54,070 bases of DNA from Bacteriovoracaceae bacterium (GTDB lineage Bacteria; Bdellovibrionota; Bacteriovoracia; Bacteriovoracales; Bacteriovoracaceae). Positions 3,097 through 51,488 of the stretch are shown here, piece by piece (positions within the stretch are counted from its first letter, which is position 1; each line of letters begins with the position of its first letter). The notes beneath the pieces are model-generated. The model had not been told where the DNA came from and did not search any database. It saw only the letters and a program-made list of their open reading frames with translations. The stretch spans positions 1-54,070 of the forward strand of contig JADHTQ010000026.1 in NCBI GenBank assembly GCA_016784965.1, read 5' to 3'. A program made the position numbers and the translations under genes.

Positions 3097-5514
3097 GTGA
3101 AGTTTTATTATTGGATCATTGTAATTTTAATTTTGATCACATCGTGTAAGTTAGAAAAACTTCAACTTAAGGAGGACCAAAAAAAAGGTACTTCAGAAGA
3201 AAGACTACAAAGGGGAGAACCATTTTCTTTGCGTGGTACGGTTACATTTATTTTCGACACACTTATTTCAACCGCCCATGCAAATGTACCAGAATGTAAA
3301 TCAACATGTACTGACCAGCAAAAATGCGTAAAGCTATATGTGGTTAAAGATGGAATTCAAACTGCAGTTTGTGAAGCACAAAAAAAAGATGATGGAAGCT
3401 TCAAAATGGACTTTGCCTCAAAGCCCGACATCCTACACAATGCAGTTACCTTATACGTATCAGCAGATGAAAGAGGTAATCGTCGAGAAAATCTTTCATT
3501 TTTTGACAACCCAAGCAATTTACAAAACATTGCAATCAACCAAACCAGCACCACTGAGCGTGTGCGAAAGCAAGAAGTGTTTGACCAGGTGATAGATGAA
3601 TTTGGAGAAGTTGGTTATGCTCTAAATAATTTATCAACTGATGAGGTAACCACATTTTTAAACCAAGTGGAAAATGGAATGACTTGTGCGGATAGATCAG
3701 ATGCAACTTGCAGAATCAATGGAGGGTGGTCAGCGTGGTTCAATGATGGCGAATGTGACACTTCTGTTGGATTGTTACGGCAAAAGCGCTATTGTAATAA
3801 TCCTACACCAAGAAATGGTGGCAGTGGGTGTGTAGGAGAAAGTGCAAGAACAATTTCTTGCAAACGACATGGAGGATGGTCCAACTGGGTCCGCGGAGCG
3901 TGTTTAACTCATACAGGAGAATTAACTGAAACTCGTCATTGTAATAACCCAACGCCAGCTAATGGTGGTAATGGATGTCCCGGGACAGGTACGCGAATTA
4001 CGGGGTGTATTCGTCATGGAGGTTGGTCAGAGTGGGTTAATGGTAACTGTGACTCTACAAGAGGCAGTCAAACTCAAACCCGTGAATGCAATAATCCAGC
4101 TCCCGGTAACGGAGGACAGGACTGCCGAGGTGCAAGTTCACGTACTATAGGTTGTGCCCGTCATGGGGGGTGGTCAGATTGGCTAGATGGAAGCTGCAAT
4201 ACAGCTACCGGAGAACAAACCCAAACGCGAGTATGCAATAACCCGACCCCTGCTAATGGAGGAAGAAACTGCATTGGTGATGATACACAAACGGCAGAAT
4301 GTAAGCGCCACGGAGGATGGTCAAACTGGGCAAATGGAACTTGTGATACTGCCACAGGTAGACAAGTACAAACGCGCGAATGCAACAATCCTACACCTCT
4401 CCACGGAGGTAACCCCTGTAGAGGAGACCGTGAGCGAACAATGGGCTGCGCTCGTCATGGAGGTTGGTCTGCCTGGCAAAATGATGGGGGATGCAACACT
4501 GAAACGGGAGAGATTAGACAAATAAGAAGATGTGACAACCCCGCCCCGAACAATGGAGGACATAATTGTCAGGGAGAAAGTGTAAAAATAATTTTATGTC
4601 CACGCCATGGAGGTTGGTCTGCCTGGCAAAATGATGGGGCCTGTAATACTACGACAGGAGAGCAAATTCAAGTTCGTCAATGTGACCACCCAACTCCTGC
4701 CAACAATGGCGACAACTGTAGTGGAGAAAGCAGACAAGTTATTGCCTGCGCACGCCATGGAGGATGGTCTGATTGGGTAGTCGGAAACTGTGACACAACA
4801 ATTGGAGAGCAAGTTAAAACTCGCTCATGCAACAACCCTGCCCCCAGAGGTGGAGGAAATAATTGTGAGGGTAGTAATTCTGAAACCATGCCATGCAAGA
4901 GACATGGAGGCTGGTCAGACTGGTTAAATGACGGAGAATGTGATAATGCCAATGGCACCGTTAGACAAATACGTTATTGCAACAGGCCCACTCCCGCAAA
5001 TGGAGGGGACCCTTGTAGTGGTGAGAGCTCACAAACCGTAAACTGCCAAAGACATGGAGGCTGGTCTGACTGGGCAAATGATGGAAACTGCAATACAGGA
5101 ACAGGTAGAGTAAATCAAGTCAGATACTGCAATAATCCCGCTCCAAGTAATGGTGGAAGACCATGTGAAGGAGAAAGCTCCAGAGAGGTAGACTGTCCAG
5201 TTGATGGAGGTTGGTCGGACTGGGCAAATGATGGCGGATGTAATACAAGTACCGGTAAACAGCGTCAGACACATGTGTGCAATAATCCTACACCTCGCAA
5301 TGGGGGAAGACCATGTCCAGGAGAGTCCTCAAGAGAAATCGGCTGTCTAGTAAATGGCGGATGGACCCCATGGCAAGAACCAGAATGCAGCGCTAGCACA
5401 GGAAGATCAGTTCACACCAGATCATGCACCAACCCCACACCCCAAAACGGTGGCACTGTCTGTCAAGGCGAAGACAGAAAAATCCTAAGATGCGCAGTAG
5501 AAACCTGCGACTAA
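3097..5514 (+). CDS. Lipoprotein with twelve thrombospondin type-1-like repeats
   Basis: An 805-residue protein starting at GTG 3097 with AAGGA upstream. The N-terminus has a lipobox (ILITSC, Cys17), so it is probably an outer-membrane or surface lipoprotein. After a Cys-containing N-terminal domain (about 60-200) come twelve tandem units of about 49 residues from residue 208 to the end. Each has GGWSxW near its start, a middle Cys, CNNPxPxNGG and a C-terminal Cys, the pattern of thrombospondin type-1 repeats with their disulfide cysteines. Such repeats commonly mediate adhesion to glycans or proteins. It is the last gene of the coupled operon with two anchored proteins and a C39-like peptidase. 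An adhesin used for attachment to other cells is the favoured inference. Confidence 0.85.
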   Translation: MKFYYWIIVILILITSCKLEKLQLKEDQKKGTSEERLQRGEPFSLRGTVTFIFDTLISTAHANVPECKSTCTDQQKCVKLYVVKDGIQTAVCEAQKKDDGSFKMDFASKPDILHNAVTLYVSADERGNRRENLSFFDNPSNLQNIAINQTSTTERVRKQEVFDQVIDEFGEVGYALNNLSTDEVTTFLNQVENGMTCADRSDATCRINGGWSAWFNDGECDTSVGLLRQKRYCNNPTPRNGGSGCVGESARTISCKRHGGWSNWVRGACLTHTGELTETRHCNNPTPANGGNGCPGTGTRITGCIRHGGWSEWVNGNCDSTRGSQTQTRECNNPAPGNGGQDCRGASSRTIGCARHGGWSDWLDGSCNTATGEQTQTRVCNNPTPANGGRNCIGDDTQTAECKRHGGWSNWANGTCDTATGRQVQTRECNNPTPLHGGNPCRGDRERTMGCARHGGWSAWQNDGGCNTETGEIRQIRRCDNPAPNNGGHNCQGESVKIILCPRHGGWSAWQNDGACNTTTGEQIQVRQCDHPTPANNGDNCSGESRQVIACARHGGWSDWVVGNCDTTIGEQVKTRSCNNPAPRGGGNNCEGSNSETMPCKRHGGWSDWLNDGECDNANGTVRQIRYCNRPTPANGGDPCSGESSQTVNCQRHGGWSDWANDGNCNTGTGRVNQVRYCNNPAPSNGGRPCEGESSREVDCPVDGGWSDWANDGGCNTSTGKQRQTHVCNNPTPRNGGRPCPGESSREIGCLVNGGWTPWQEPECSASTGRSVHTRSCTNPTPQNGGTVCQGEDRKILRCAVETCD

Positions 5515-12537: not shown

Positions 12538-14160
12538 CTAACGAATAAGGTTTTCTACGATAATCTTTTTTTCGGTTTTATCTAGTTTTTCAGAATATAT
12601 GATAGACTCTTTAAGGTTTGCAACAATCTGTTCGGCAACACTTTTATTCATTGATGCTAAGTAAGCTACGGTCAATTGCATAATTTCATATAACTGTGAA
12701 ACAGCATCCTTGTCCCATAATGCATACTCTTTCCAGTCACCAGTATCAAACCATGCAATTCGCCCAAACTCATTTAAAACTAGGTCAGGGTCAACAGGCA
12801 TGATTCTTTCTTCAATGGTTCTAAGGTAGAACCTTACAATTTGATCTAGTACTTTTTCAGAATTACTATTCATAAAAGATACAAAACGTTTTTTGCTGGC
12901 AGAATCCATCATAGCTGACTTCAAATGGGCAGTTTGTCTACCAGGGAGTTGTTTGGCAATGTCTAAGTAGTAATATTTATCTCCCTTATAAGTAATTTGC
13001 CCGTGACCATATAATCTTGGGGCATCCACTACCTGCCCCAAATTTGCCATGTTTACTTCTTTTAAATAATCCTGAGCAGAAATATTCATCAATTTCAAAA
13101 TACGGATTTGACTCCCTTTTGGACGATACTGCATTATATGAGAGTGGTGTAATCCCCATACTAAAGGTGATGTACCAGAAAGAAGTTCAACCTTGTTACC
13201 ATTAATTTCCAGCACTTCATGGCCCGAATTTATTGCTGAGACGATTTCTAATTTTTTATATTGGGATAACAGTTCAATTAATTCTGCCACACTTGCCCCA
13301 TCCCCTTGTTGCCTGTCTTTTTGTAGTGCTGAGATTTGATTATATAATCTACGATTTAATTTGTATTTATCAGTAGAGTCTACAAAGACATCCATCTTTT
13401 GTTGTTCAATAAACGCTAAAAAATGCTCTCCAAGTTTTGGGTCAAAATGCCCTGCTGTAATTCGAGCATCTATTGACTGTAGCGCTTGGGTCTTGGTGAG
13501 TAAGGCCCTGCCCCCGTTTTGTTTGCGATATAAAAGCCATGCATCAGATAGTGCAAGCATTCTACTTAGAAGTGGAATTTCTTCTTGCTTTTTCCCATAA
13601 GGTCCATCACCATTCCATAACTCTTGGTGATGGTTAACAATTGAACGCACTTGTTGCCAAGCTTTTTTATCATCAGCTGGAATGCTTTTGGAGGCAGTAT
13701 GAGCAGCACGATTAAATTCGCGCCTTATCGTACTATCAAATCCAGATAGTCTTGCTACAGTTACTCCTTGAGAGAGTAAATTTTGAGGGATTGCAAGCAT
13801 TCCGCGACTTTGAATATTTGCTGCCAGATAAAGCATTTGAAACTCTTCTGAGGACAACTTTACTATATTGTTGGAGTGCAAGTGCCAGGCAAACGCCATA
13901 CTTACTTTCACTAGGCCTCTAAATTGCTCCAGCATGGCAAAGTCGTATCTGACAATATCATCACCAAGTTGTCTCGCTGCTAAACCGATTTTTTTTTTAC
14001 GGATCTGTCTGATTCCTGCAATAAGCTCGGAGTCCATTTCAATATTTGTTAAAAAATGTGAGATAAAACGAGCACAGCCTGTGCCAGAGGAGGCCTGGAC
14101 AGGGATTATATTTAACCAACAGCTCCACAACAAGGAAACAACAATATATCTAAGCTTCAT
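12538..14160 (-). CDS. Exported protein: degenerate HD-GYP domain plus kinase-like domain
   Basis: A 540-residue protein with a signal peptide (residues 1-24, cleavage after VQA). Residues about 80-255 follow the HD-GYP template. LAANIQSRGMLAIPQNLL aligns with the segment that normally reads AAxxHDIGKxxIP, but Gln117-Ser118 replaces HD. NHHQELWNGDGPYG (176-189) matches HHExxDGxGYP with GPY for GYP, and IPLLSRMLALSDAW follows as in the family. Several metal ligands are missing, so it is probably not an active phosphodiesterase. Residues about 300-540 resemble a kinase fold: RILKLMN, YYYLDIAKQLPG as a hinge, and DPDLVLNEFGRIAWFDTGD like the catalytic loop and DFG region. The substrate is unknown. 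A strong terminator follows the gene. Confidence 0.6.
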   Translation of the reverse strand: MKLRYIVVSLLWSCWLNIIPVQASSGTGCARFISHFLTNIEMDSELIAGIRQIRKKKIGLAARQLGDDIVRYDFAMLEQFRGLVKVSMAFAWHLHSNNIVKLSSEEFQMLYLAANIQSRGMLAIPQNLLSQGVTVARLSGFDSTIRREFNRAAHTASKSIPADDKKAWQQVRSIVNHHQELWNGDGPYGKKQEEIPLLSRMLALSDAWLLYRKQNGGRALLTKTQALQSIDARITAGHFDPKLGEHFLAFIEQQKMDVFVDSTDKYKLNRRLYNQISALQKDRQQGDGASVAELIELLSQYKKLEIVSAINSGHEVLEINGNKVELLSGTSPLVWGLHHSHIMQYRPKGSQIRILKLMNISAQDYLKEVNMANLGQVVDAPRLYGHGQITYKGDKYYYLDIAKQLPGRQTAHLKSAMMDSASKKRFVSFMNSNSEKVLDQIVRFYLRTIEERIMPVDPDLVLNEFGRIAWFDTGDWKEYALWDKDAVSQLYEIMQLTVAYLASMNKSVAEQIVANLKESIIYSEKLDKTEKKIIVENLIR

Positions 14161-27038: not shown

Positions 27039-27683
27039 CTACTTTTTTTCAAGTACAACTAATAAGCTATCATTGTCAGTATTTAACTTTGAATAGACTA
27101 GGTTATTAACATTTGGGAGCACTCTTTTTATCATTTCGTGAGTTGAAGGTAGTAAAAATATCTTTCCTCCAGGCTTGAGTGTTCGAGATAGCTCAGCTAA
27201 GGCAGCTTTTATAAAGAAGCGATCATATGCTTGAAAGTGAAAGAGTGAGTAGTGGGAAACGATAACATCAAAGGATGCATCCAAAAAAGGAAGATCTAAT
27301 ACATCTGCCCGATAAAAATTTGCATTCTCAATTTGCTTTTTAGTTAACGTAAGGTCTACCGCTTTTACATTGATTCCTCTTTCTATCAAGTCGTCAACAA
27401 ACCCACCAGTACCAGTTCCAACATCTAGAACTTGCTTATCAATTAAATATGGAATTAGATCCATCTCTAGTGATGGAAACAACTGATGATAACCTGCTCG
27501 GTGTAACATCTGTAGGGTCCGGTTGGTTCTAGCATATGGAAACCTTATACCTGCAGAAAAAGAGACTACTTCGGTGGCAGAATGGATGCAGTCGTTTTTT
27601 GGTTTGCTCCCCGCACTCTCAGCGATAGCTATTGGATCAAAAGCGTTCAAGGCAAGTAATATTATTGATAATTTGATAACCAT
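27039..27683 (-). CDS. Class I SAM-dependent methyltransferase with apparent signal peptide
   Basis: A 214-residue protein. VLDVGTGTGGFVDDLIERG (about residues 87-105) is motif I of class I methyltransferases, followed by VKAVDLT, RADVLDLPFLDASFDVIVSH and the post-motif LSRTLKPGGKIFLLPS. The fold and order are those of Methyltransf_11 proteins. Residues 1-22 (MVIKLSIILLALNAFDPIAIA) look like a signal peptide, which is unusual because SAM is cytoplasmic. No clear ribosome binding site is seen at ATG 27683, and no good internal start removes the leader. It could be a membrane-tethered cytoplasmic enzyme or a truly exported protein. Confidence 0.8.
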   Translation of the reverse strand: MVIKLSIILLALNAFDPIAIAESAGSKPKNDCIHSATEVVSFSAGIRFPYARTNRTLQMLHRAGYHQLFPSLEMDLIPYLIDKQVLDVGTGTGGFVDDLIERGINVKAVDLTLTKKQIENANFYRADVLDLPFLDASFDVIVSHYSLFHFQAYDRFFIKAALAELSRTLKPGGKIFLLPSTHEMIKRVLPNVNNLVYSKLNTDNDSLLVVLEKK

Positions 27684-32312: not shown

Positions 32313-32909
32313 CTACATTATAGGTGCAGCGATGTAATCAATGTAGTCTAGTAACTTCTCCATCAAATTTAAGTGATCTATAATGAGCACACCATTTAAA
32401 TGGTCATATTCATGCTGGACGACTGTTGCCATGAGGCCCCTGGCCTGTTGGGTAACAAATTTTCCCGTACGGTTATAATAACTAAACTTAACTTTTTTAT
32501 ATCTTTTGACCCGAACTCTTTTTCTTGGAATTGAAAGACACCCCTCAGTGGAGAGTTTTTTACCAAAGCTTTCAAGGTATTCAACGGTAGGATTTATAAG
32601 GATTGTAAGTGGTATTGAATAGCCACTTTTCATTACAAATACTCGTTTTGAGATCCCTACCTGTGGAGCCGCAAGACCCACTCCTTTGGAGTTTTTTAAA
32701 GTAGCAACCATATCATCTAAGAAGCTTTGAAATTCTTCCGTTTTAATCTCATCAAGGGGAACCTCCTGTGCGACTTGTCGCAAGGTGGGGTCTCCAAGTT
32801 TGATAATATCTAAAGGCCCATCTTGGTAGTTGGCCAATCGTTGAGAAAAACATAGTTGAGAGGTTAGGAGCAGCGCAATAATTAGATGTGGTTTTATAGT
32901 GGTACTCAA
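32313..32909 (-). CDS. Peptide deformylase with apparent signal peptide
   Basis: A 198-residue deformylase reading from TTG 32909, which has AAAAGG nine bases upstream. All three family motifs are intact: GVGLAAPQVG (76-85), EGCLSIP (122-128, metal ligand Cys124) and QHEYDH (165-170, ligands His166 and His170). Deformylase removes the formyl group from new proteins in the cytoplasm. Here residues 6-22 (KPHLIIALLLTSQLCFS) form a signal-peptide-like leader ahead of the enzyme. A GTG at 32999 would add 30 basic residues. No methionyl-tRNA formyltransferase gene is nearby, so this is probably an accessory, exported copy. Confidence 0.85.
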   Translation of the reverse strand: MSTTIKPHLIIALLLTSQLCFSQRLANYQDGPLDIIKLGDPTLRQVAQEVPLDEIKTEEFQSFLDDMVATLKNSKGVGLAAPQVGISKRVFVMKSGYSIPLTILINPTVEYLESFGKKLSTEGCLSIPRKRVRVKRYKKVKFSYYNRTGKFVTQQARGLMATVVQHEYDHLNGVLIIDHLNLMEKLLDYIDYIAAPIM

Positions 32910-33126
32910 ATTTTTTTGCCTTTTTGGTTGTTGTTTTTTAAATTTAGGTTTGTAACCTAGCTCAAAATACACATTCACACAAGTGTAGAAGGCAGTCACA
33001 ATTGTATTTTTTACAGCATCCGATATTCACATTGATAAAGCTAAAAATAAAATGTAACCACCTGTTCAGTGTTATAAATATAAAAATAAAATTATAATTT
33101 TTAGAATTGATCCCGGTGGGGAAGTC

Positions 33127-40684: not shown

Positions 40685-41815
40685 ATGAAAATGCAATTTA
40701 TCAAAGTCATGTTCTTGTTAATAATATATGTTTTATCCTCACATCTTTATGCAAAAACCTTCTGTATTGGCCACAAAAATCCAGATACTGACTCAGTTGT
40801 TTCAGCAATTCTTGCTTCAAAAATGTATAATTGTGTTCCAGCTATTGCTGGTGAGTTAAACAATGAAACTAAATTTGTACTTGAGACCTTAGGTATAGAG
40901 CCACCTGAAGTCATTACAAAACATCAAGTTGGAAACAAAGTAATTCTTGTAGATCACAATTCACCAACACACGCCATTGATGGTCTTATAAAAGAAGATG
41001 TTATAGGCATTATCGATCACCACCCATTTAGTGGAGAGAGCTTTTTAAAAGTAGGTGATCCACGAGTTACTCACCAGGTAATGGGTAGTACTAGTACGCT
41101 TATTGCACAGGAAATGAAAATGATTGCCCCTCAAAATGCATTCGATAGCAGTGTTGCTAGGCTAATCGTAGCTGGTATTGTTTCGGATACTATCAATTTG
41201 AGCTCTAATGCTACTCGCGAGGCTGATCGAAAGGTTTTATTAAAAGCAACCGCAGAGGCCCATTTTAATGAGGTTGGCTCAAGATTTGATGATTTTGTTT
41301 TGGAGATGTTCAAGAAAAAATCGGATCTATCTCAGCTCAATGAAGCACAGATTATTATGAATGATTGGAAGAGATTTGATGATCAAAAAATGGGGTTTGG
41401 GGTTGCCCAAACTGTGGCACCTGATGAATTGTTGACAAGAAAAAGTGAGCTTTTATTACAGATGGAACTCATTAGAGAACAAGAGGGCCTTGAATATGTT
41501 TTTTTTATGGTTACAGATACTCGCTCTGTGGCCGATCCAGCGTACAATAAGCCACTGCAGTCATACTTTCTAGTTTCTAATAATAGGGAAGCTACGATGC
41601 TCACTGAAACATTTGGTGATGCTGTAGAAGATATGGGAGATAATGTCTTTGCTGTAAAGACAGGACAAACTTCAAAAAAATTCAACTATGCCCCAGAGCT
41701 GCTAAATCAAATTGAGCAAACTAGCTCTCACCCAGGGCTTAGTTTGATTATTGATAGTCAGGGAAAATGTGCAAATAGTGTAAATGTAATGATGATGATG
41801 ATGCATAGATTATGA
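40685..41815 (+). CDS. Family II (manganese-type) inorganic pyrophosphatase with signal peptide
   Basis: A 376-residue DHH-family enzyme. The metal site is complete by eye: FCIGHKNPDTDSV (His30, Asp34, Asp36), ILVDHN, GIIDHHPF and VSDTINL. The phosphate-binding motif near the C-terminus, usually SRKKQ, reads SKKFN here. The enzyme splits pyrophosphate to phosphate and is normally cytoplasmic. Residues 1-23 (FLLIIYVLSSHLYA) form a signal peptide, so this copy is probably periplasmic. The last residues include five consecutive methionines from an ATG run. It is convergent with the large exported gene at 41833. Confidence 0.87.
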   Translation: MKMQFIKVMFLLIIYVLSSHLYAKTFCIGHKNPDTDSVVSAILASKMYNCVPAIAGELNNETKFVLETLGIEPPEVITKHQVGNKVILVDHNSPTHAIDGLIKEDVIGIIDHHPFSGESFLKVGDPRVTHQVMGSTSTLIAQEMKMIAPQNAFDSSVARLIVAGIVSDTINLSSNATREADRKVLLKATAEAHFNEVGSRFDDFVLEMFKKKSDLSQLNEAQIIMNDWKRFDDQKMGFGVAQTVAPDELLTRKSELLLQMELIREQEGLEYVFFMVTDTRSVADPAYNKPLQSYFLVSNNREATMLTETFGDAVEDMGDNVFAVKTGQTSKKFNYAPELLNQIEQTSSHPGLSLIIDSQGKCANSVNVMMMMMHRL

Positions 41816-45239: not shown

Positions 45240-46625
45240 ATGTCAGGACTACTTAAAAAATTTAACTCATTCTGGGATGGAGAAGGTGGAGCACACCACA
45301 TTCTTCAAGTTGCCTTCCCCCTGATATTAAGCAGCTCATCATTTACGGTAATGCAATTTGTAGATCGCAAATTTTTGCTTATATATTCCAAGGAAGCATT
45401 TCAAGCGGCAGCGCCTGCTGGAATGTTGTCTTTTACCATTATGGCCTTATTTTTTGGGACGGTTAACTACATCAATACCTTTGTTGCCCAATATACTGGG
45501 GCAAAAAAGCATAGTCTCGTAGCAGTTGCCCTGTGGCAGGGTTTATATTTTGCACTCATTGGGTATCTATGCATTCTTCCATTTTCTGGTTTTGCATCGG
45601 AACTTTTTTTGATGATAGGGCATTCAAAAGAGGTCGCATTTTTAGAAGCACAATACTTTAAGATTCTAATCTACGGCAGTGGCCTAGTTTTAATTAACCA
45701 GGTCTTAAGCGCCTTTTTTAGTGGCAGAGGAAAAACAAAAGTAGTGATGTGGGTGCGTTTTTTGGGGATGAGTTTAAATTTACCTCTTGATTATCTTTTG
45801 ATTTTTGGTGGACTTGGAATTGCTCCGATGGGAATTGAAGGGGCAGCTTATGCCACGATTATATCAACTGGGTTTGTGACCCTTTTGTTTTGTGCTTTAA
45901 TTTTAAGGCCTAAAAACCAAGTTAAATTTCAAATTCTAGCAAATTATCGCTTTCACCTCGGTCTTTTCAAGCGGTTGATTAAATATGGACTACCCAGCGG
46001 TGTACAATTTATTATCGATATATTTGGCATGTCTTTTTTTATTTTAATGGTGGGACGTCTCGGTGAAGTAGAGCTTCTTGCAACTAACGCTGTTTGGTCT
46101 TTAAATTTGTTAGTCTTTTTGCCCATGATTGGGATGGTAATTGCTATTACTACCTTGGTGGGAAAATCAATCGGTGCTGAGGATATTAAGCTGGCCGAGC
46201 GAATTACGGCCAACTCTTTTGTTTTGGTCTTTAGTTATATGTTATTTGTTGGGAGCCTTTTTGTTGCTGCTCCACACTTTTTTCTCTCATTAATTTTAAC
46301 AAGAAACAGCGATGGAAGTCTCACAGAAATATATGACTTAGGTACGATTCTTCTGCGGTTTGTCGCCCTTTATTCAGTGTTTAATGCAATCGGAATGGTT
46401 TTTTCATCAGCAATTAAAGGGGCAGGCGATACAAGGTATGTGATGCGCGTTTCGTTTATTATATCTGCAACTGTCTTGGTTGCCCCAAGTTATTTAACCT
46501 CAACCGTTTGGCCCATGCCCGCGAGTATTCCCTGGGCCTTTGCCACAAGCTACATTTGCATTATGGGCCTTGTTTTTTATTGGCGCTATCGTCAGAAACA
46601 CTGGATGAAAATTAAAGTTATTTAA
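45240..46625 (+). CDS. MATE family multidrug/metabolite exporter
   Basis: A 461-residue integral membrane protein with about twelve hydrophobic segments arranged as two related halves. It begins with the typical HHILQVAFPLILSSSSFTVMQFVDRKFL, and YGLPSGVQFIIDIFGMSFFI opens the second half. The N-terminal motif and even spacing match MATE (NorM/DinF-like) transporters, which export cationic drugs or metabolites using sodium or proton gradients. AAGG lies just before the ATG. It stands alone. Substrate unknown. Confidence 0.9.
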   Translation: MSGLLKKFNSFWDGEGGAHHILQVAFPLILSSSSFTVMQFVDRKFLLIYSKEAFQAAAPAGMLSFTIMALFFGTVNYINTFVAQYTGAKKHSLVAVALWQGLYFALIGYLCILPFSGFASELFLMIGHSKEVAFLEAQYFKILIYGSGLVLINQVLSAFFSGRGKTKVVMWVRFLGMSLNLPLDYLLIFGGLGIAPMGIEGAAYATIISTGFVTLLFCALILRPKNQVKFQILANYRFHLGLFKRLIKYGLPSGVQFIIDIFGMSFFILMVGRLGEVELLATNAVWSLNLLVFLPMIGMVIAITTLVGKSIGAEDIKLAERITANSFVLVFSYMLFVGSLFVAAPHFFLSLILTRNSDGSLTEIYDLGTILLRFVALYSVFNAIGMVFSSAIKGAGDTRYVMRVSFIISATVLVAPSYLTSTVWPMPASIPWAFATSYICIMGLVFYWRYRQKHWMKIKVI

Positions 46626-48864: not shown

Positions 48865-50106
48865 TTACATGATTGGAGGAAAGATTGGAGGAAGTAAGAG
48901 ACCGTTATCCGCATAACGTTTCTTTATTTTTGAACAAACTAACTGTGGATCTGATATACCATACTTTTTCATCTTAGCTTCGGTTAACAAGCCGTTCCAA
49001 TACAGATAACAGGTTTTGATTCGAGCAAAATGAGATGCCATGCGAGCTTGAATTTTAGCAAAAGTATCATCAGGGCGGATTCTGGCTGCTGCAAGTGTTA
49101 TGTTGCCTGACATTTTAGAATCTTTATCAAGTGTAGTAAATAGCCCTTTTAAACCACTAAGCTTCTTTGAGTAAGTTTTCTCGCTTGCCAAGTCGCCGTC
49201 ACTATTGCCCATCACACGGGTGTTTTCATATTCAATTTCTGCCAAGAGGTCAGAAATTTGGGTTTGAAAAACTCTTTGAACTTGTTCATCGTCAACTATA
49301 CTGCGATTTATTCTTTTTGACAGGTATAGCATATCCTTTTTGGAAATATCGTGTACAACCATTAAGAATTCATCACCATCTGATGGCTTAAAAAAAGTAA
49401 CTTGGTTACCAGAGCGTGGTGATTTCTCAATTACCTGTGCAATTGCTTCTAAATATGAATCACCGGCTTCCATCTGTCTTAAAAAATAATTAACCTCTCC
49501 TAAGTTGCCCGCATCCATCAATACTACAAAGGTATGTAACCTCTCAAGGTTGCTAGTATGCTTTCTTCTGTTTACAAGTGCAGAATTGCTTTTTGCTTGG
49601 ATGATGTGATTAAGCAACCTCTTTCCGGCACCAACTTGTCCCTTTTTTTGGCCATTAAAAGATAAAAATCCAGATTTTCCATCAATTACAAATTCTTCGT
49701 AAGTTACTTTGCCATTTGGAAGCTTAGTTTCTAACATTACTACTTGGTCATTGTTAATAATTCTAGAAACAATGGTCATTGTATCAGAGATTCTGTGAAT
49801 AGTTTGTTGATGATAGCATCTTGGTATTTGGCAATCAATTACTGGAGCAACGGTCTTACATTTAAGACATCGCCCGGTATACTTGGTCATTTCATCTATT
49901 TGTTGTGCAAGGTTTCTATCATGCTCTTTTGCTCCACTTTGGGCAACTTTTTTAAGTTCCTGTGTGAGTCTCAACATAGATTGCAAAATAGTGATACAAG
50001 ATTGAACTGGTTTGAGGAAACTATTTTCTTCTGAATGCCCAAGATTAATTGGCAAATTGAATGTCACAATGATCACAAGTAACAATATTGTTGCCCTATG
50101 GTTCAT
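48865..50106 (-). CDS. Exported GGDEF-like protein with SDGDEF motif, copy A
   Basis: A 413-residue protein read from ATG 50106 with GGAG eight bases upstream. Residues 1-24 form a signal peptide. A four-cysteine cluster (C-x2-C-x8-C-x4-C, 80-97) follows a helical segment. From residue 192 the sequence follows the GGDEF template: VLMDAGNLGEVNYF, GDSYLEAIAQVI, PSDGDEFLMVVHD (242-254) where GGDEF is expected, and NITLAAARIRPDD. Acidic DEF is kept but the first Gly is Ser and the second Gly is preceded by Asp, so GTP cyclase activity is uncertain. It is a tandem paralogue of the gene at 50232-51488. Export of a GGDEF fold is unusual. Confidence 0.65.
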   Translation of the reverse strand: MNHRATILLLVIIVTFNLPINLGHSEENSFLKPVQSCITILQSMLRLTQELKKVAQSGAKEHDRNLAQQIDEMTKYTGRCLKCKTVAPVIDCQIPRCYHQQTIHRISDTMTIVSRIINNDQVVMLETKLPNGKVTYEEFVIDGKSGFLSFNGQKKGQVGAGKRLLNHIIQAKSNSALVNRRKHTSNLERLHTFVVLMDAGNLGEVNYFLRQMEAGDSYLEAIAQVIEKSPRSGNQVTFFKPSDGDEFLMVVHDISKKDMLYLSKRINRSIVDDEQVQRVFQTQISDLLAEIEYENTRVMGNSDGDLASEKTYSKKLSGLKGLFTTLDKDSKMSGNITLAAARIRPDDTFAKIQARMASHFARIKTCYLYWNGLLTEAKMKKYGISDPQLVCSKIKKRYADNGLLLPPIFPPIM

Positions 50107-50231
50107 GTCGTTCACTCCGTTAACCGCAAAAAATTTTATAGTTTTTTCCAACACCTACTTGAGACACTGTTAGCACACAATTGTATTTAAATGATTAAGA
50201 AATGAACTAGGTTTAAACACAGTTTTTCAAT

Positions 50232-51488
50232 TTACATTACAGGAGGAAAAACCGGTGGAAGTAGCATGTCGTTACGGGCGTAATGCTTTTTAAATTTTGC
50301 ACAGGTTTGTATTGGATCCGTAACACCATATTTAAGCTTTTTGGCTTCAGTTAAAAGGCCACTCCAAAACAAATAGCAAGCTTTAATTAATCCAAACTGT
50401 GATGACATCCTTGCCTGTAGTTTTGAATAAGTATCTCCAGGACGAATGCGTGCGGCTGCAATGGTGATGTTGCCGGCCATCTTATTGTCTTTTTCTAAGG
50501 TAAGTAGTAATCTTTTGGTGTCAGCAAGTGTTTGGGAAAACTTCTGTGCATTATTTAGGTCATTATCACTTTGACCTAATATACTAGTATTTGCATGTTC
50601 CATTTCAGCGAGCAAGTCAGAGATTTGAGTATCAAAAACACTTTGAACCTGATCGCTTTCTACCACATTGCGGTTTAGTCTTCTCGATAGATGTACCATT
50701 TCTTTTTTAGTTACATCATGGACTACCATTAAAAATTCATCCCCATCAGAAGGTTTAAAAAAATTAACTTTATTGCCAGATCTTGGTGTATTGTTAATTA
50801 CTGAGGCAATTGCTTCTAAGTAAAGATCTCCTGCTTCCATCTGTTTTAAAAAATAATTCACTTCTCCTAAGTTGCCAGCATCCATAAGTACTACAAAGGT
50901 GTGTAGTTTGTCAGGTTTTGTATCTTGTGATCTGCGCTTTTTAGGCTTATATGAAGCATCTGCTCTGGTTTCAATGATGTGATCGAGTAGTTTTTTTCCG
51001 GTACCAACAACACCCTTTTTTTGGCTATTAAAGGATAAAAAACCCGATTTGCTATCGACGATAAACTCTTCATATTTTTTGTTGCCATTAGGAAGCAGTG
51101 TCTCCAATACATAAATTTCTTCATCATCAATTTGCCTTGTAATAATTGCCACGGTATCAGAAATTCTATGTACCAGCTTGTGCCTATGACACTTAGGCAT
51201 TGGACACTCACTTACTGGTGTATCGGTTTTACATCTAAGACATAGAGACGTATACCTGGTCATTTCATCTAATTGTTGTGCATATGAACGGTTGTGTGTC
51301 CTCATGCCCGTCTTGGCAACCCTATCAACCTCACGCATGAATGCCATAAGAGACTGTATGGTTTGCAAGCAAGACTGAGCAGAGGCCATTGGACTAAGTG
51401 TTCCAGAGTAAGAAATACCAACTAGAAAATATAAAAAAATGATATATATGCTAAACAATAGCTTTATTTTTAAACGTATAATTTTCAT
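50232..51488 (-). CDS. Exported GGDEF-like protein with SDGDEF motif, copy B
   Basis: A 418-residue paralogue of the next gene downstream. ATG 51488 gives a hydrophobic leader (about 9-27) that may be a signal peptide or anchor. The cysteine cluster has the same spacing (83, 86, 95, 100). The GGDEF-like core reads VLMDAGNLGEVNYFLKQMEA, GDLYLEAIASVIN and PSDGDEFLMVVHD (SDGDEF at 247-252), followed by NITIAAARIRPGD. The two proteins share most residues from the cysteine cluster to the C-terminal FPPVM/FPPIM. The pair lies in one direction with 125 bases between them, as after a gene duplication. Activity and ligand are unknown. Confidence 0.65.
   Translation of the reverse strand: MKIIRLKIKLLFSIYIIFLYFLVGISYSGTLSPMASAQSCLQTIQSLMAFMREVDRVAKTGMRTHNRSYAQQLDEMTRYTSLCLRCKTDTPVSECPMPKCHRHKLVHRISDTVAIITRQIDDEEIYVLETLLPNGNKKYEEFIVDSKSGFLSFNSQKKGVVGTGKKLLDHIIETRADASYKPKKRRSQDTKPDKLHTFVVLMDAGNLGEVNYFLKQMEAGDLYLEAIASVINNTPRSGNKVNFFKPSDGDEFLMVVHDVTKKEMVHLSRRLNRNVVESDQVQSVFDTQISDLLAEMEHANTSILGQSDNDLNNAQKFSQTLADTKRLLLTLEKDNKMAGNITIAAARIRPGDTYSKLQARMSSQFGLIKACYLFWSGLLTEAKKLKYGVTDPIQTCAKFKKHYARNDMLLPPVFPPVM

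Follow-up and report, generated by a model that had tools for sequence, protein, structure and literature searches.

By textbook accounts, GGDEF domains work in the cytoplasm, where they make or read c-di-GMP. In PleD, we take residue 327 to be the metal Asp and Asn335 to be guanine-reading; Lys332, Lys442 and Arg446 are presumably phosphate contacts. Asp344 also has a role in reading guanine (PMC9140294), and in Hypr enzymes, a type to which the intracellular Bd0367 of Bdellovibrio belongs, its position is taken by Ser (PMC9140294). Degenerate GGDEF receptor domains act as sensors of c-di-GMP or GTP (PMC12943098); they reside in the cytoplasm, mostly fused to EAL or sensory domains. We found no description of exported GGDEF domains in the open-access literature searched. 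The nearest precedents are the GGDEF domains of phage polyvalent proteins: in the polyvalent proteins of phages and plasmids, delivery of a GGDEF domain into another cell has been proposed (PMC5512222). Those proteins are large, injected, multidomain products of a phage or element, whereas the family described here is chromosomal and has a signal-peptide-like leader. Another point of comparison is polymorphic toxin systems, with a common N-terminal export module and exchangeable C-terminal enzyme domains (PMC3482391); the word GGDEF is absent from the accessible portion of the text of that catalogue.

The window, by which we mean the whole stretch of 54,070 nucleotides analysed here, contains two tandem genes for GGDEF-like proteins with predicted export leaders, P0002 and, 125 bp downstream on the same strand (-), P0001 (Table 1). 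The open reading frames confirm what the first-pass annotation had described, i.e., two adjacent paralogues (56% identity, E 3e-161), each with a leader, an SDGDEF motif and a Cys cluster of exact C-x2-C-x8-C-x4-C spacing (C83, C86, C95 and C100 in P0002; C80, C83, C92 and C97 in P0001). Both also contain the GD-x-YLEAIA and NIT[LI]AAARIRP segments. The frames are open and constraint is strong, which rules out a pseudogene; scans for promoters and terminators at the locus gave results no better than shuffles. A third paralogue, P0003, is found on a different contig of the same genome. It keeps the core and the Cys cluster, the four cysteines being invariant across all three paralogues, and its motif is SNGDEF.

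Table 1. Features of the window, and partner genes found in relatives of the pair
Feature	Coordinates	Strand	Basis
P0002, predicted exported GGDEF-like protein, 418 aa, tandem gene 1	50232..51488	-	ORF and translation
P0002 signal-peptide-like leader, residues 1-28, MKIIRLKIKLLFSIYIIFLYFLVGISYS	51405..51488	-	hydropathy and charge
P0002 C-x2-C-x8-C-x4-C cluster, C83-C100	51189..51242	-	invariant in three paralogues
P0002 GGDEF-fold domain (predicted), ~residues 125-373	50370..51116	-	AlphaFold2 model vs GGDEF structures, Z ~16
P0002 VDSKSGFLSFN, counterpart of GGDEF N-terminal D-x-L-T-G motif	51027..51059	-	family alignment, in-phylum canonical GGDEFs
P0002 MDAGNLGEVNYF, metal Asp and guanine-reading Asn kept, Gly at PleD Lys332 position	50850..50885	-	
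P0002 SDGDEF motif	50733..50750	-	
P0002 helical-hairpin insert, helix 3 to next strand, ~residues 279-335	50484..50654	-	model secondary structure
P0001, predicted exported GGDEF-like protein, 413 aa from ATG, tandem gene 2	48865..50106	-	ORF and translation
P0001 C-x2-C-x8-C-x4-C cluster, C80-C97	49816..49869	-	
P0001 SDGDEF motif	49366..49383	-	
Leader-bearing HD-GYP-like protein	12538-14160	-	HD_5, E 2e-16
SAM-dependent methyltransferase, signal-peptide-like leader	27039-27683	-	
Peptide deformylase, N-terminal extension with signal-peptide-like stretch	32313-32999	-	
Manganese-dependent inorganic pyrophosphatase (DHH-DHHA2), signal-peptide-like leader	40685-41815	+	
Upstream partner genes of relatives, for small proteins predicted to be exported	L063:6231-6617, L064:9176-9565, L069:9537-9926, L049:2362-3003, L068:4622-5152		

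The window pair scores 19.1 and 17.1 bits against the Pfam GGDEF profile (PF00990), below the cut-off of 23.8, and the ten relatives scanned pass it with 33-72 bits. An AlphaFold2 model of P0002, built on an alignment of 30 related domains, has pLDDT of 85 and pTM of 0.76 (an earlier prediction from three sequences, with pLDDT of 54, was set aside). The best structural match of the model is a diguanylate cyclase (Z 16.1, rmsd 2.0 over 154 residues), and its matches, among those listed, are GGDEF-containing structures; a 13-member family profile matches PDB GGDEFs with E of 1e-12. The modelled fold of P0002 is that of GGDEF and not an unrelated one, so that the domain assignment in the first-pass annotation stands. 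The model carries an extra two-helix insert (~residues 279-335), which is present in relatives as well.

Scans of genome contigs with single proteins and with the three-row alignment gave no relatives of the window pair, and neither did a scan of viral contigs; relatives emerged only with profile searches over whole genomes. With the three-paralogue profile, distant relatives came to light in two further genera of the taxonomic family to which the window genome belongs. The distribution, including that among predatory bacteria, was surveyed within one phylum, and wider profiles find the GGDEF-like family in 22 of the 369 genomes searched; these 22 are spread over eight taxonomic families. Its weakest member, at 7e-46, is well separated from the best non-member, at 1e-20, and in the tree the family is split from nine canonical GGDEFs of the phylum with support of 100; the place of the window trio within the family has weak support. 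The architectures seen include 530-aa relatives with GGDEL, relatives of ~820-1140 aa in which a GGDE-bearing domain and a degenerate one stand in tandem, and the window trio, which is short. That an exported GGDEF-fold family exists we regard as very likely, and the best explanation of the window pair is that it represents derived members of this sparse, phylum-wide family.

Leaders were judged by hydropathy and charge. P0001 and P0002 each have a single N-terminal hydrophobic stretch with a positive n-region before it, as in Sec-exported proteins; in P0002, the n-region has net charge of +4 and AxA-type sites are found further on. Summed over 19 family members, net charge is +25 before the hydrophobic stretch and -17 after it, which places the domain outside, and cleavage-like sites of the classical type follow the stretch in most members. 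Moreover, relatives with very different N-terminal regions have a leader in all cases where the start of the protein is visible (one start is missing, cut by the contig end). Hydropathy and charge thus agree, in the pair and in essentially all relatives, with the exported type of leader proposed earlier, and they strongly support the prediction that these proteins are exported.

Between P0001 and P0002, dN is 0.09 in the core and 0.47 in the N-terminus, so the core is constrained; dS is near or above 1, i.e., near saturation, which makes the exact dN/dS ratio rough. As judged from these sequences, the constraint on the core of the tandem copies is real. Selection on SDGDEF as the signature, proposed in the first-pass annotation, is not supported, since P0003 has SNGDEF and most family members have GGDE[FL]; the motif had been over-read because the third paralogue was not seen. 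In the light of the alignment, SDGDEF is a lineage-specific change, not a signature of the exported family.

All three proteins of the window trio keep the metal Asp and the guanine-reading Asn and Asp (PleD 327, 335 and 344). Lys442 is also kept, Gly is found at Lys332 and Leu at the Arg446 position. None of the three matches the GG[DE]EF signature, with SDGDEF in two and SNGDEF in one; NGG is replaced by PS[DN]G, with Asp or Asn in place of the first Gly and a turn that is longer by one residue. The RxxD I-site, five residues before the signature, is gone (RSGN, RSGN and RLGT). The simplest reading of these replacements is that guanine recognition is retained and catalysis is weakened or lost, and the window copies are probably catalytically weak or dead and nucleotide-binding. 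A binding role, one of the options raised by the first-pass annotation, is plausible because the metal and guanine-contact positions stay and the phosphate contacts and the I-site go. A different nucleotide, another of its options, is disfavoured because the equivalents of Asn335 and Asp344 are kept. Hypr-type adenine specificity is ruled out by the kept Asp344 equivalent.

In comparison with GGDEF diguanylate cyclases (PF00990; PleD, DosC and Bdellovibrio DgcB, 6hbz), the family has the same fold (Z ~16), order of motifs, metal Asp, acidic pair of the signature, guanine-reading Asn and Asp, and helix-4 Lys. It differs from them in predicted export, in the change of Lys332 to Gly, in the lack of Arg after D-x-x-TG-x-x-N, and in the helical insert; the window copies differ further in having S[DN]GDEF, no I-site, and Leu at the Arg446 position. 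Degenerate GGDEF receptors are similar in that the signature is changed, catalysis is likely lost and ligand binding is possible, but the window domain is predicted to be exported and its copies have lost the RxxD I-site. Bd0367, which likewise belongs to the GGDEF family and probably to the same phylum, is intracellular and of the type with Ser at the Asp344 position, where the exported family keeps Asp.

In several relatives, the GGDEF-like domain forms the C-terminus of a modular protein that is predicted to be exported. The region at the N-terminus of the 530-aa relatives (alignment A4), and that of another subgroup (A5), recurs in exported-type proteins with other C-terminal domains; the alternative tails on this common module include Gln_deamidase_2 (Pfam, E 2e-18), PI3_PI4_kinase-like domains (Pfam, E 4e-9 and 4e-8), and further tails without a Pfam match. 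In the 530-aa relatives and several non-GGDEF proteins, a gene for a small protein with predicted export is located directly upstream and overlaps the start of the large gene, and similar small genes precede non-GGDEF proteins with the same N-terminal module. The partner proteins are very divergent in sequence and receive no name from Pfam; inspection by eye leads us to suspect a DcrB/PsbP-like fold, and a partner-like stretch is discernible by eye at the N-terminus of one large protein, L090. Because the small partner is present with different tails, the role of an adaptor seems to suit it better than that of an immunity protein. Leader-bearing proteins of a polymorphic family (L111-L142), which have a Cys-rich module at the N-terminus in common and vary at the C-terminus (Gln deamidase-like, PI3/4-kinase-like, and others without assigned identity), occur in most genomes of one genus, for which there are many complete genomes of 3.0-4.1 Mb.

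The modular architecture of the relatives is that of interbacterial effectors, which by analogy favours action outside the producer. As in polymorphic toxin systems, a common N-terminal export module is combined with exchangeable C-terminal enzyme domains; different from those systems, no clear immunity genes were found here and the window pair is without the common module. Neither that module nor the partner gene was found in the trio, the trio's own Cys-rich N-terminal region has no convincing relatives in the family searched, and we identified no immunity gene, no secretion machinery and no small partner beside the window pair. The effector reading therefore reaches the trio only via relatives of its domain. 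Use inside another cell, as suggested by the first-pass annotation, thus gains indirect support from the effector-like modular relatives, but not from the pair, which lacks their module.

The explanation that we favour, with moderate confidence, is that the pair are Sec-type exported, non-cytoplasmic, nucleotide-binding and catalytically poor GGDEF-fold proteins, of a family acting outside its producer. The window copies would bind a guanine nucleotide or cyclic dinucleotide via the kept metal and guanine positions, and, owing to the changes at the phosphate-contact and GG positions, would produce c-di-GMP weakly or not at all; disulphides of the Cys cluster may stabilise the N-terminal region in an oxidising compartment. 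The family as a whole would act beyond the producing cell; the most likely place is the surface or the interior of another bacterium, which offers GTP. By analogy with effectors, we give action of the family in or on another cell somewhat less than an even chance, and such action of the window pair is less certain still; delivery into another cell rests on the architecture of the relatives, not on P0001 and P0002. A more far-reaching proposal, which is tentative and on balance rather doubtful, is that predator-related bacteria use exported GGDEF-fold effectors to interfere with cyclic dinucleotides or guanine nucleotides in another bacterium. GGDE-bearing members would then produce a signal inside the target cell, to be bound by degenerate members, the window pair among them.

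A consistently exported chromosomal family breaks the usual assumption on where a GGDEF domain works. The modular relatives tie this family to candidate effectors in what seems to be a phylum with predators of the Bdellovibrio type. How such predators gain access to the contents of the prey cytoplasm is listed in a review as an open question (PMC10225642). Members that keep GGDE[FL] are candidates for c-di-GMP-type activity outside the producer.

Among the alternatives, a catalytically dead GGDEF fold could have been recruited for protein-protein interaction or for structure within the periplasm of the producer itself, where it would bind no nucleotide. The degenerate motif, loss of the phosphate contacts and I-site, degeneration of the second domains in relatives, and absence of a partner gene beside the window pair would all fit such a scaffold. 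A pure scaffold, however, has no need of the metal and guanine-reading positions that the trio keeps, and constraint on these proteins is strongest in the core, so we consider this role unlikely.

The same 54 kb encodes leader-bearing versions of other normally cytoplasmic proteins (Table 1). The pyrophosphatase has a GHKNPDTDS motif and intact catalytic motifs. The HD-GYP-like protein matches c-di-GMP phosphodiesterase structures, with the HD motif absent; its C-terminal region is common to another leader-bearing protein, on contig C90, and no full-length relative was found among the 74 related genomes searched. The deformylase is possibly another exported version of a cytoplasmic enzyme. These genes, all from one 54-kb window, suggest export of several enzyme-fold proteins by this bacterium, in keeping with a function outside the cell; neither they nor the methyltransferase gene form an operon with the pair. 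The leader-bearing pyrophosphatase and HD-GYP-like protein would also be in line with a role of the pair in the producer's envelope, binding nucleotides from digested prey or biomass and aiding uptake or signalling. Against such sensing or scavenging, which we hold to be improbable, stand the lack of operon linkage and the deamidase and kinase tails of the relatives, which resemble effectors rather than uptake.

Most relatives keep the metal Asp, guanine-reading Asn and Asp, GGDE[FL] and helix-4 Lys, with Gly in place of Lys332 and without Arg after D-x-x-TG, and many have RPGD or a similar RxxD five residues ahead of the signature. The relatives with both GGDE[FL] and RxxD at the right spacing, together with the acidic pair kept in DGDEF, could be taken to mean that the window proteins are exported diguanylate cyclases that remain active despite a changed signature; against this stand Asp or Asn in place of the first Gly, a turn extended by one residue, and Gly and Leu at the Lys332 and Arg446 positions, which make cyclase activity very improbable. 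Finally, ordinary membrane-anchored GGDEF proteins, with the N-terminal helix as anchor and the domain in the cytoplasm, might be imagined from a second, weakly hydrophobic stretch in some relatives, but this stretch is not present in the window pair, the single N-terminal stretch is preceded by positive and followed by negative or neutral charge, and the Cys clusters are conserved, so that this orientation is ruled out on charge and hydropathy and retains hardly any likelihood.

The window genome also encodes other GGDEF proteins. An FHA-GGDEF protein has Bdellovibrio bacteriovorus DgcB (6hbz) as its best match, which extends over its length and suggests a Bdellovibrio-related phylum. In one canonical GGDEF, L097 (G000:C81:104000-105900), the PleD Asp344 position is occupied by Ser, which is also the residue of Hypr (cGAMP-making) GGDEFs; in L094, it is occupied by Thr. 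As for other genes of the window, a MATE transporter (45240-46625, +) has relatives that also lie near the GGDEF-like gene, in two genomes from a different genus (L065 and L066), a proximity that may be due to chance. A leader-bearing 805-aa protein (3097-5514, +) contains about a dozen Cys-rich GGWS-x-W repeats, which by eye resemble thrombospondin type 1 repeats.
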